Assembly (NCBI RefSeq): GCF_024436035.1
Contig: NZ_JANFNG010000002.1
Location: forward strand, 434,001 to 498,000
From: Streptomyces humicola
GTDB taxonomy: Bacteria; Actinomycetota; Actinomycetes; Streptomycetales; Streptomycetaceae
Direction: 5' to 3'
Length of the DNA: 64,000 nt
In this document: piece after piece, positions 8,045 to 20,692 of the stretch
Layout of the letters: each line of letters begins with the position of its first letter
Position numbering within the stretch: the stretch's first letter is position 1
Notes under the pieces: generated by a model
The model's database searches: none
What the model was told of the DNA's origin: nothing
The model's input: only the letters and a program-made list of their open reading frames with translations
Made by a program: the position numbers and the translations under genes

Positions 8045-9298
8045 CTACCCAGCGGGAGGGGGAAGCGCACGGCTGTCCGGTGGATCCCCTACGAGCGTCG
8101 GCGGGTTGCGCATGACGGCCTCGCGTGGCGCGTCCGCCGCCTGCTCCCCGGGTGCCGCGGCGATGCACAGGAACGTGACAACGGCGCAGGCCGGATAGAC
8201 CCAGCCGAGGGCCGACAGGTACCAGGGGCGGCTGAACGCCCAGATGGTCGGCTGGAGCCGCAGCAGCAGGGTGACGGGCCAGGTGGCGGTGGCCGCCGTC
8301 CACGCCCAGCACGGCAGCCGTCCGACGGCGGATCGCCGCGGAGCCGACCAGATGATCACGGCGGCGGCCCACACCCAGTGGTGGTCCCATGAGATCGGGG
8401 AGAGCAGCAGGCCGAGGAGTTCGACGGTGACGATCGCGGCGAACGCGTCATCGTGCCTGATCGCGGTCCGCAGGGCGCGCACCGCGAGGACGACGGCGAG
8501 CGCTGCCGCGATCAGCCAGGGTGCGGTAGTGCCCACGTCGTGACCGGCCGTGCGTGAAAGAGCGCCGCGCAACGACTGGTTGATCACCGAGCCTATCGGC
8601 CCGTCACGTCCGGCGTCGCCCAGCAGATGGAACCAGAAACGTTCCGACGCTGCCGGGGAGATCAGCCAGGCGACGCCTGCCGTCGCCGCGCAGACCGCGG
8701 CCCAGCAGGCGGCCGCCGAACGGCGCCGGGTGGCCAGCAGGTAGAGCACCGAGATACCGGGGACGAGTTTGACCGCGGTGGCGATCCCGGTCCCCAGCCC
8801 CGTCGCCCACGCGTTGCGCTGGGTCAGGGCCCACAGGGTGAGCGCGGCGAGGAAGAGGTTGACCTGACCGAAGTCGAGCGTGGTCTGCACCGGTTCGATC
8901 CACAGCAGACCCGCGGTCCACACCATGGTGACGCGGGCGTCGCGCACCCCGGTCAGCGACAGGCAGCGGTGGACGAACCACGCCAGGCACAGCAACGAGG
9001 CCGCGTCCCACAGGACGCCGACGACCGTCCACGGCAGGGCGGACATGGGCAGGAACAGCAGGGCGGCGAACGGCGGATAGCTGAACGGCAGCGGGAAGAT
9101 GCTCGTGCCGTGCAGGACGAGTCGCACGTCGTACAGCTGCCCGGTCAGCAGGGCGGGCGGCAGTGAGCGGAAGACCCGCAGATCGATCAGCCCATCGGTG
9201 CGCAGACCGAACACCAGGAGAGCCACGTGGGGCACGAGGGACGCGGCCAGCAGCCACGGCGCGTTCCGGATCAGCCAATGTCGGCCGGGCTTGGACAT
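8045..9298 (-). CDS. GT87 family membrane mannosyltransferase-like protein
   Basis: The 417-residue polytopic membrane protein has about ten hydrophobic segments. It shows GT87 (polyprenyl-phosphate-mannose-dependent alpha-mannosyltransferase) signatures: an early luminal Asp in TDGLIDLRVF, INQSLRG near residue 240, and SPISWDHHWVW near 310. Family members add mannose from polyprenol phosphate mannose on the outer face of the membrane. The ATG at 9298 begins a short basic N-terminus before the first segment. The downstream mannosidase gene makes a two-gene glycan operon likely. The acceptor is unknown. Confidence 0.85.
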   Translation of the reverse strand: MSKPGRHWLIRNAPWLLAASLVPHVALLVFGLRTDGLIDLRVFRSLPPALLTGQLYDVRLVLHGTSIFPLPFSYPPFAALLFLPMSALPWTVVGVLWDAASLLCLAWFVHRCLSLTGVRDARVTMVWTAGLLWIEPVQTTLDFGQVNLFLAALTLWALTQRNAWATGLGTGIATAVKLVPGISVLYLLATRRRSAAACWAAVCAATAGVAWLISPAASERFWFHLLGDAGRDGPIGSVINQSLRGALSRTAGHDVGTTAPWLIAAALAVVLAVRALRTAIRHDDAFAAIVTVELLGLLLSPISWDHHWVWAAAVIIWSAPRRSAVGRLPCWAWTAATATWPVTLLLRLQPTIWAFSRPWYLSALGWVYPACAVVTFLCIAAAPGEQAADAPREAVMRNPPTLVGDPPDSRALPPPAG

Positions 9299-9509
9299 GG
9301 GCGGAATGCTATGCGGTCCACCTGAATGGGGACCGACGGTGGGCCAGGGTGGGCCGACGGGATGGCAACACGCCGTCAGGAACTTTTGGACCGCGTTAAG
9401 AATATCCCACTCTTATGTTCATCTTACGTTCCTTTTTGTGATGATTTATGGCGACTCGTAAGCGTGGAGCCGGTCCGTCGCACCGCCACAGATGCCAGGA
9501 GGAACAGAC

Positions 9510-9635
9510 ATGCACCGTAAACGCGTTGCTCTTGCCGCCTTCTCTATGGCGGCTGCATCGATGGTGTTCGGGATGCCCGCCGCCTACGCCGTTTCGCCGT
9601 CGCAGACGGCCGGCGACGACAGGTTCAGGTGGTGA
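9510..9635 (+). CDS. Very short secreted peptide
   Basis: A 41-codon gene with an excellent ribosome binding site (AGGAGG, 7 bases before the ATG). The product has a textbook signal peptide: MHRKR, a hydrophobic core, then PAAYA with likely cleavage after Ala27. Only 14 residues would be left, SPSQTAGDDRFRW preceded by Val. The size and spacing do not fit a normal secreted enzyme. It may be a genuine exported peptide, or the remnant of a longer gene, because the DNA after the stop is AT-richer and lacks continuing coding signal. I do not recognise a family. It lies between the GT87 and alcohol dehydrogenase genes. Confidence 0.55.
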   Translation: MHRKRVALAAFSMAAASMVFGMPAAYAVSPSQTAGDDRFRW

Positions 9636-9741
9636 CCGTGTCAAGCCGCCCAAATATCAGGCGCTTTACCCGAATTCGCGATGACATAGGTAGATGGACT
9701 ATGCGAGCATTCCGCGATAGCGGGCTTTTCGTAAGAAAAAG

Positions 9742-9755
9742 GGGAATGAATTCCC
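9742..9755. promoter_or_regulatory. Palindrome upstream of alcohol dehydrogenase gene
   Basis: GGGAAT-GA-ATTCCC is a perfect 6-2-6 inverted repeat in an AT-richer stretch about 85 bp before the dehydrogenase start. A small CCGC-GATA-GCGG hairpin followed by CTTTTC precedes it at about 9712-9730 and may end the peptide transcript. The operator role is inferred. Confidence 0.35.
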
Positions 9756-9837
9756 GCGCGCGCGGATGCGCCTGTCCTCGGTGGTCCCGGATCACCCGAC
9801 TTGTGTTCGAGTGCGCTCCAAGTCGTACGGTCGCGGC

Positions 9838-10884
9838 ATGAGCACCACCGTTTCCGCCTATGCGGCACCTACTCCCAAAGCCCCTCTGGAACCCACGACG
9901 ATCACTCGTCGCACGGTCGGCGAGCACGACGTCCTGATCGAGATCAAGTACGCCGGTATCTGCCACTCCGACATCCACCAGGCCCGCGAGGAATGGGGTG
10001 ACGGAATCTTCCCCATGGTCCCCGGGCACGAGATCGCCGGTGTGGTCACCGAGACCGGTCCCGGCGTCACCCGTCATGCGGTCGGCGACCGGGTGGGCGT
10101 CGGCTGTTTCGTCGATTCCTGCCGCTCCTGTGCCCATTGCAAGGGGGGGCGCGAGCAGTACTGCACCCAGGGAGTCGGCACGTACAACGCCGTGGGCCGC
10201 GACGGAGAGCCGACCTACGGCGGCTACAGCACACACGTCGTCGTCGACGAGAACTACGTGCTACGCATCCCGGACGCGCTGCCGCTCGACGTCGCGGCGC
10301 CGCTGCTGTGCGCCGGCATCACCCTGTACTCGCCACTGCGCCGTTGGAATGCAGGACCCGGCACTCAGGTAGCGATCGTCGGCATGGGCGGGCTCGGGCA
10401 CATGGGTGTCAAGATCGCCCACGCCATGGGTGCCGAGGTCACCGTCCTCAGCCACTCCCTGCGCAAGAGGGACGACGGCCTGCGGTTCGGCGCCGACCAC
10501 TTCCGCGCCACCGGTGACCCCGCCACCTTCACCGAGCTCGCCGGCTCCTTCGACCTGATCGTCAACACCGTCTCGGCCAACCTGGAACTCAATGCGTATC
10601 TGGGCCTGTTGACGGCGGAGGGCACACTCGTCAACGTGGGCGCGCCCGAGAACCCGGTGCCGGTCGCCATGTTCTCGCTCATCCAGGGCGGCAAGAGCCT
10701 GGCCGGGTCGATGATCGGCGGCATCGCCGAGACCCAGGAGATGCTCGACTTCTGCGCCGCTCACGGCATCGGCGCCGAGATCGAGACCATCCCGGTGGAC
10801 CGGATCAACGAGGCGTACAAGCGGGTCGTCGACAGCGACGTCCGCTACCGCTTCGTCATCGACACCTCGACCTTCGCCCGGTAG
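9838..10884 (+). CDS. Zinc-dependent NAD(P) alcohol dehydrogenase (CAD-like)
   Basis: A 348-residue medium-chain dehydrogenase. GICHSDIH carries the catalytic zinc Cys at about residue 42, GHE follows near 64, and the structural zinc cluster [15 protein letters not shown] is at about 95-109. The cofactor motif GMGGLGHMG is near 182. The pattern matches the cinnamyl alcohol dehydrogenase/YahK group, which reduces aldehydes with NADPH. The ATG at 9838 has no clear ribosome binding site, so translation may start on a nearly leaderless mRNA. It is convergent with the phosphodiester glycosidase gene, with a strong terminator between. The physiological aldehyde is unknown. Confidence 0.92.
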
Positions 10885-20070: not shown

Positions 20071-20300
20071 GATGTATGCACCCCTCGTTCCGGTTCGGAT
20101 GAGGCGGCGGGGGCGATATCCAGGGGTACGGATATCCCGCTGGACGCATCGCCTTCGCGTTTTGATCCCATCGTATGAATCCTGTTAGGAAAGCGGAAGC
20201 ATCGGGAAAGCGGCCTTTCCGCGCCGCACGTCCGGCCCAGTGGAGACCTCCGATGGCGGCACGGACAGGCTGACGGGTTGCCGAGTCCCGACGGGTCACA

Positions 20301-20314
20301 TATCAGTGCTGATA
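20301..20314. promoter_or_regulatory. Palindrome TATCAG-TG-CTGATA
   Basis: A perfect 14-bp palindrome 43 bp upstream of the 111-residue membrane-anchored protein gene, in an AT-rich patch of an otherwise GC-rich divergent region. It could be an operator over that promoter. The regulator is unknown. Confidence 0.4.
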
Positions 20315-20356
20315 AGGAATTTACGCATGGCCGGGATCGCCAGGAGGTCGGGAGAG

Positions 20357-20692
20357 ATGCAAGCCAGGCGTTTCGTGTGTGCGGCAATCGCGGCCGGTGT
20401 GGCCGTACTCGCTGCCGCGCCGGTCACGTCGGCCGCTCCTGTCGCCGGCGTGCCGGGCCGGGCGGCGCCCCCCGCCGCCGGACCGGGCTCCATCGTGACC
20501 GTGTACGACGAGCCCGAGCACGACGATGTCCGGGTGATCCGCCAGCCGCGCGGAGGGGTCAGGACGGGGCTCGGCGGCAGCGTACGGACCTCGGACCCTG
20601 CCGAGGTCGCCGCCGGTGCTGCTCTGCTCGTGGGGGCGGTCTCGGGCGCCGGCATCGTCGTGTACCGCCGCCGCGCCCGCAGGGCTGCGTGA
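20357..20692 (+). CDS. Small exported protein with C-terminal membrane anchor
   Basis: A 111-residue product: an N-terminal signal peptide (MQARRFVCAAIAAGVAVLAA, then APVTSAAP), a Pro/Gly-rich extracellular part with many charged residues (YDEPEHDDVRVIRQ), and a C-terminal hydrophobic segment (VAAGAALLVGAVSGAGIVVY). The basic tail is RRRARRAA. The topology is that of a sortase substrate, but no LPxTG is present, so it is probably a simple membrane-anchored surface protein. The ATG at 20357 has AGGAGG upstream. The function is unknown. Confidence 0.7.
   Translation: MQARRFVCAAIAAGVAVLAAAPVTSAAPVAGVPGRAAPPAAGPGSIVTVYDEPEHDDVRVIRQPRGGVRTGLGGSVRTSDPAEVAAGAALLVGAVSGAGIVVYRRRARRAA

Follow-up and report, generated by a model that had tools for sequence, protein, structure and literature searches.

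Small secreted signalling and antimicrobial peptides of actinomycetes are encoded by short ORFs with a signal peptide. The 41-codon ORF at 9510-9635 (+ strand) of the window, by which we mean the whole 64,000-nucleotide stretch of Streptomyces humicola DNA analysed here, resembles such genes in being short and in carrying a signal peptide. It differs from them in showing neither a conserved mature peptide nor evident dedicated neighbours, and in clearly deriving from a longer gene. The second described system to be compared is the GVDTG sorting domain (NCBIfam NF058571). The C-terminal tails of four longer relatives of the ORF resemble this domain, with scores (14.9, 22.5, 23.9, and 18.7 bits for P0001, P0002, P0003, and P0004, respectively) that are all below the curated cut-off of 29 bits; the window copy has no such tail. 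We consider it very probable that the ORF is a pseudogene, the decaying 5' remnant of a larger secreted-protein gene. The remnant itself is ordinary in kind. A mini-gene that looks convincing, with a good ribosome-binding site and a textbook signal peptide, can turn out to be the front of a broken gene; such cases are settled by seeking longer paralogues in the same genome. The features of the locus are as follows.

9350-9365 (+): degenerate version of a ATGGGCCRAGGGAGTGG-like upstream element common to the four intact relatives (DNA alignment; 0.52-0.57 identity)
9425-9430 (+): TACGTT, identical in all five copies, either a putative -10-like hexamer or the beginning of the leader hairpin (DNA alignment)
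9428-9436 (+): GTTCCTTTT, the complement of the ribosome-binding site, forming the outer arm of the leader hairpin in the predicted fold (fold prediction)
9445-9492 (+): predicted inner leader hairpin formed by 9445-9453 and 9484-9492; the window copy has an A-C mismatch in it (fold prediction, covariation analysis)
9497-9505 (+): ribosome-binding site AGGAGGAAC, also the partner arm of the predicted hairpin (sequence, fold prediction)
9510-9635 (+): 41-codon ORF encoding a signal peptide and 13-14 further residues, the truncated 5' remnant of a gene for a secreted protein (sequence, homology search, protein and DNA alignments)
9618-9633 (+): GACAGGTTCAGGTGGT, the QVQVV codons of the relatives, out of frame through a net one-base loss and followed by TGA (DNA alignment, shuffle test)
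9636-9794 (+): expected place of the relatives' core, with no family sequence detected in any frame (profile model, DNA comparison, control)
9800-9837 (+): upstream region of the dehydrogenase gene, where unrelated sequence has already begun (likeness to sequence preceding oxidoreductase-like genes in other genomes)

The ORF is real as the sequence-only reading had drawn it, and the AGGAGG, the signal peptide, and the mature part of about 14 residues claimed there were confirmed directly in the sequence. The ribosome-binding site AGGAGG lies at 9497-9502, the ATG at 9510, and the TGA at 9633-9635. The translation is MHRKRVALAAFSMAAASMVFGMPAAYA|VSPSQTAGDDRFRW, where the bar marks the cleavage point placed by eye; the Sec-type signal peptide ends (also by eye) in AYA and is followed by VSPSQTAGDDRFRW, 13-14 residues. 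Use of an in-frame ATG at 9492 would extend the ORF to 47 codons. As the ATG at 9510 is common to all four relatives in the DNA alignment and none of them has an ATG at the position of 9492, the start was assigned to 9510. Scans of the ORF gave no match in Pfam at E 0.001 and none in NCBIfam at E 1.

The 41 residues were used as a query against 394 genomes of the bacterial family, drawn from a larger group and including both genomes of the genus (its own, G000, and a sister, G001). Besides the window copy, matches occurred in both genomes of the genus: G001:C6 (56% identity, E 5.7e-6), G001:C315 (53%, E 9.6e-6), G000:C11 (50%, E 1.4e-5), and G000:C3 (44%, E 7.9e-4), with E values calculated per genome. 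The homology spans residues 1-36 or 1-38 of the ORF, and because its N-terminus is thus homologous to four longer genes, the ORF is more than a chance reading frame. A sixth match (L006, E 0.51), in a frame that looked acyl-CoA-synthetase-like by eye, was dropped as chance. Altogether, six of the 394 genomes matched at E ≤0.01, namely the two of the genus and four others; the latter matches (E 0.006-0.008, in open frames of 307-497 amino acids) are about the number expected by chance for 394 genomes.

The four relatives are intact secreted proteins of 188-242 residues. Two of them (L004 and L005) are encoded in the same genome and two (L002 and L003) in that of the sister. All four share a charged linker, His-rich or Asp/Arg-rich, a core with two cysteines (RWHHRCGxGWDSGWVRG...RGWISxCxW(RR)), and a C-terminal tail (GxVRAGxGGS...hydrophobic...RRRSS). 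None of the four has a Pfam family over the cut-off, and no family name was found. A model of the core matched at E 6.3e-20 or better in two of the 394 genomes, both of the genus, and weakly in two further genomes (E 0.006-0.007), with 15 candidates scored per genome. A model of the whole family matched at least 109 of the 394 genomes at E ≤0.001 (seven candidates scored per genome); among the matches listed, none of those outside the genus starts before model position 85, and the majority are confined to the tail. So far, the protein family has clearly been seen only in the genus of Streptomyces humicola. The four proteins form a small family of secreted, probably cell-surface proteins, and may be anchored by one of the four class F sortases that score over the cut-off in the S. 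humicola genome.

The window copy shares with these relatives the control region, leader, ribosome-binding site, signal peptide, and first mature residues; in contrast to the relatives, which continue through core and tail, it ends at residue 41. It thus carries the leader, the ribosome-binding site, and the MRRTRLTIATLSMAASA-like signal peptide by which members of the family are recognized. The suggestion that the ORF is the intact start of a lost secreted protein is therefore supported by its N-terminal homology to the four proteins. Longer orthologues whose frame is broken here had been named as the finding that would speak against a peptide gene, and longer paralogues of this kind were found. 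The proposed signalling or antimicrobial peptide did not gain support: the search for conserved short ORFs in related genomes, with 394 genomes covered and both of the genus among them, found no second short version, and the relatives are long.

At the DNA level, the window copy is 68-75% identical to the intact copies over the 95 bases upstream of the ATG, and only 0.52-0.57 identical in the outer upstream stretch. After the signal peptide, the ORF aligns first with the linker of the relatives and further on with codons in a shifted frame: GACAGGTTCAGGTGGT (9618-9633) matches GACAGGTCCAGGTGGT of L003, where it is in frame as QVQVV, and the window copy is one base short (net) relative to L004, so that TGA results. 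The score of this match was reached by 1 of 3000 shuffles for L003 and 6 of 3000 for L004, and by 310 and 651 of 3000 for L005 and L002, respectively; as only the first two values are significant, support for homology past the stop rests on two of the four relatives.

Beyond this point we found neither core nor tail. The best score of a model of the mature part in the six frames of 9636-9840 was 0.7 bits, which was equalled by 726 of 2000 residue shuffles, and the core (RWHHRCGxGWDSGWVRG...RGWISxCxWRR) is accordingly not detected in the window copy. A frame at 9629-9841, in which a few residues align by eye, was tried as a worn core and dropped on the same figures. In the controls, an undamaged 67-residue stretch of each relative scored 44.9-64.9 bits with a model made without that relative, and copies with 30% random change were all detected (30 of 30 for every relative). 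At 50% change, 8-26 of 30 copies per relative exceeded 12 bits, and at 70% only 1-11 of 30 (substitutions only, no indels); thus, a core with half or more of its residues changed would often be missed. Because no core or tail was detected under conditions in which 30% change is detectable, the remainder has been deleted, replaced, or worn beyond recognition.

The same search bears on two other explanations. An assembly or sequencing error could have broken an intact gene, and the one-base difference near 9618 is of the type such errors produce. However, the site lies inside a contig of 565,614 bases, and beyond 9618 no family core or tail follows in any frame, by which this explanation is nearly excluded. 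Another account holds that a gene was never whole here, and that a copied promoter-leader-signal fragment of about 300 bp landed between two unrelated genes. The confinement of detected DNA homology to the 5' end (9419-9634) and the failure to detect a core in any frame agree with such an insertion; against it, the signal region of the window copy is more diverged from the intact copies (identity 0.70-0.73) than these are from one another (0.83-0.89). Since the window copy has diverged beyond the intact copies, the original event at the locus is not visible, and we regard the insertion of a fragment as very unlikely.

A displaced 3' part was also sought. Among 1004 open stretches of the window, the mature-part model scored at most 9.2 bits apart from one tail, at 21.8 bits, in a separate ORF near 20189-20692. 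The GxVRAGxGGS...RRRSS tail is absent after the 41-codon ORF, and the nearest one in the window is that of the separate ORF, at about 20531-20677. In the same genome, the whole-family model (all 107 candidates scored) recovered both intact copies, the window copy, and two matches to the tail only, with no clear displaced piece. With 15 of 75 candidates scored, the core model returned both intact copies plus a weak match at G000:C11:156479-156580 (E 0.003), which sits within a 337-residue frame. The separate ORF in the window, a short one at 20240-20692 (+), has a signal-peptide-like start and a tail (GGVRTGLGGSV...YRRRARRAA) of the same kind as that of the four relatives, and is possibly another sortase substrate.

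On the reading as a decaying remnant, a third paralogue of a small secreted, probably cell-surface family, found so far in this genus only, would have decayed until only the control region, the ribosome-binding site, the signal peptide, and a dozen or so residues were left. Through the net loss of one base, the frame would have run into TGA, and the charged region, the CGxGWDSGW...RGWISxC core, and the C-terminal sorting-like tail would have been deleted, replaced, or worn past recognition. If the locus is still transcribed and translated, its product would be a by-product of a signal peptide and 13-14 residues with no selected role. We infer the order of these events and the present lack of function.

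A candidate structured leader lies upstream of all five copies (L004:1420-1503, L005:1606-1690 (-), L002:1418-1503, L003:1606-1690 (-), and window 9425-9512). In the intact copies, the stretch of about 85 bases from GTTCCTCTT to AGGAGGAAC is predicted to form a long hairpin that could mask the ribosome-binding site. The folding z values are -4.61 (L004), -4.66 (L002), -3.06 (L003), and -3.72 (L005), and 0, 0, 2, and 0 of 200 shuffles, respectively, folded as well. In the window copy, the outer stem over the ribosome-binding site is kept (-26.1 kcal/mol), with a z of -0.98 and an equally good fold in 30 of 200 shuffles; the predicted fold is thus exceptional in all four intact copies but not in that of the window. 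In the alignment, 94.6% of cells pair, versus 39-60% when the partner is slid, although this control favours a structure that had been derived from these very sequences. Three pairs changed on both sides; covariation is not established, because there are only five sequences and 56 of 500 shuffles were as good. TACGTT could instead be a -10 box; the RNA would then lack the outer stem.

A model built from the five leaders found the same five places only in the two genomes of the genus (150 of 1877 and of 1167 candidates scored), and no place in the 392 remaining genomes of the sample, a weak negative given stricter filters and ten candidates scored each. Rfam, searched with L001-L005 at E up to 1, gave four matches, none at the leader. 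We think it quite improbable that the intact leader (GTTCCTCTT:AGGAGGAAC around the inner hairpin) is an undescribed cis-acting translation switch, limited to the genus so far, and that the truncated locus at the same time supplies a decoy leader RNA. A candidate leader RNA over a small secreted-protein family would be a testable regulator, and the leader of the intact relatives is the interesting thread here.

Constraint on the signal region was compared among the five copies. Over the first 29 codons, the window copy differs from the majority of the intact copies by 12 nonsynonymous and 3 synonymous changed codons. The four intact copies, each compared with the majority of the other three, sum to 12 nonsynonymous and 25 synonymous changed codons. 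This excess of amino-acid change in the window copy (Fisher p 0.0024) fits relaxed selection. Pairwise dN/dS is 0.31-0.52 with the window copy, compared with 0.07-0.25 between intact copies. The same pattern would arise from new selection for a different peptide, which nothing else supports. A paralogue could have been truncated to a short secreted peptide that is now selected as a signal or an antimicrobial, with the numerous amino-acid changes and the intact start, ribosome-binding site, and signal peptide in its favour. Against this stand the lack of a second short form in the 394 genomes, the unexceptional predicted leader fold, and the alignment of the post-signal part with the linker and then with frame-shifted codons. 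Furthermore, there is no evident peptide exporter, processor, or immunity gene among the five neighbours that were scanned with Pfam, which are of the types GH38, GT87, zinc dehydrogenase, phosphodiester glycosidase, and polysaccharide deacetylase. We hold a selected peptide to be highly improbable and retain the reading as a decaying remnant. Some observations do run against the latter: the signal peptide is well formed, the start and the ribosome-binding site are intact, dN/dS of the signal region is still below 1, and the predicted outer stem over the ribosome-binding site persists.

The ORF lies between a GT87 glycosyltransferase gene on the left (8045-9298, minus strand) and a zinc dehydrogenase gene on the right (start 9838, by eye; end 10884). 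Comparison of gene order with the sister genome failed, as neither flanking gene has a close counterpart there: the matches of the GT87 gene are only 36 and 38% identical, and the single match of the dehydrogenase at E ≤1e-30 is 36% identical. For this reason, the segment 8045-10884 may be accessory. The AT-richer stretch reported 3' of the ORF was found again (GC 0.59-0.61 in 200-base windows versus about 0.70 around), and the upstream side is likewise low (0.57); across 9300-9999, GC is 0.57-0.63. The hairpin at 9712-9730, placed at 9711-9724 by the terminator scanner, is judged weak because its stem has five pairs and 1.5 kb holds two terminator-like sites versus 0.5 (sd 0.7) in shuffles. 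The Rfam scan of the window gave nothing over the gathering threshold. Upstream of the dehydrogenase, CTTGTGTTCGAGTGCGCTCCAAG (9800-9837) is similar to sequences that precede a short-chain-dehydrogenase-like gene (L047) and an aldo-keto-reductase-like gene (L048; both names by eye) in other genomes, and it looks like a MerR-type operator.
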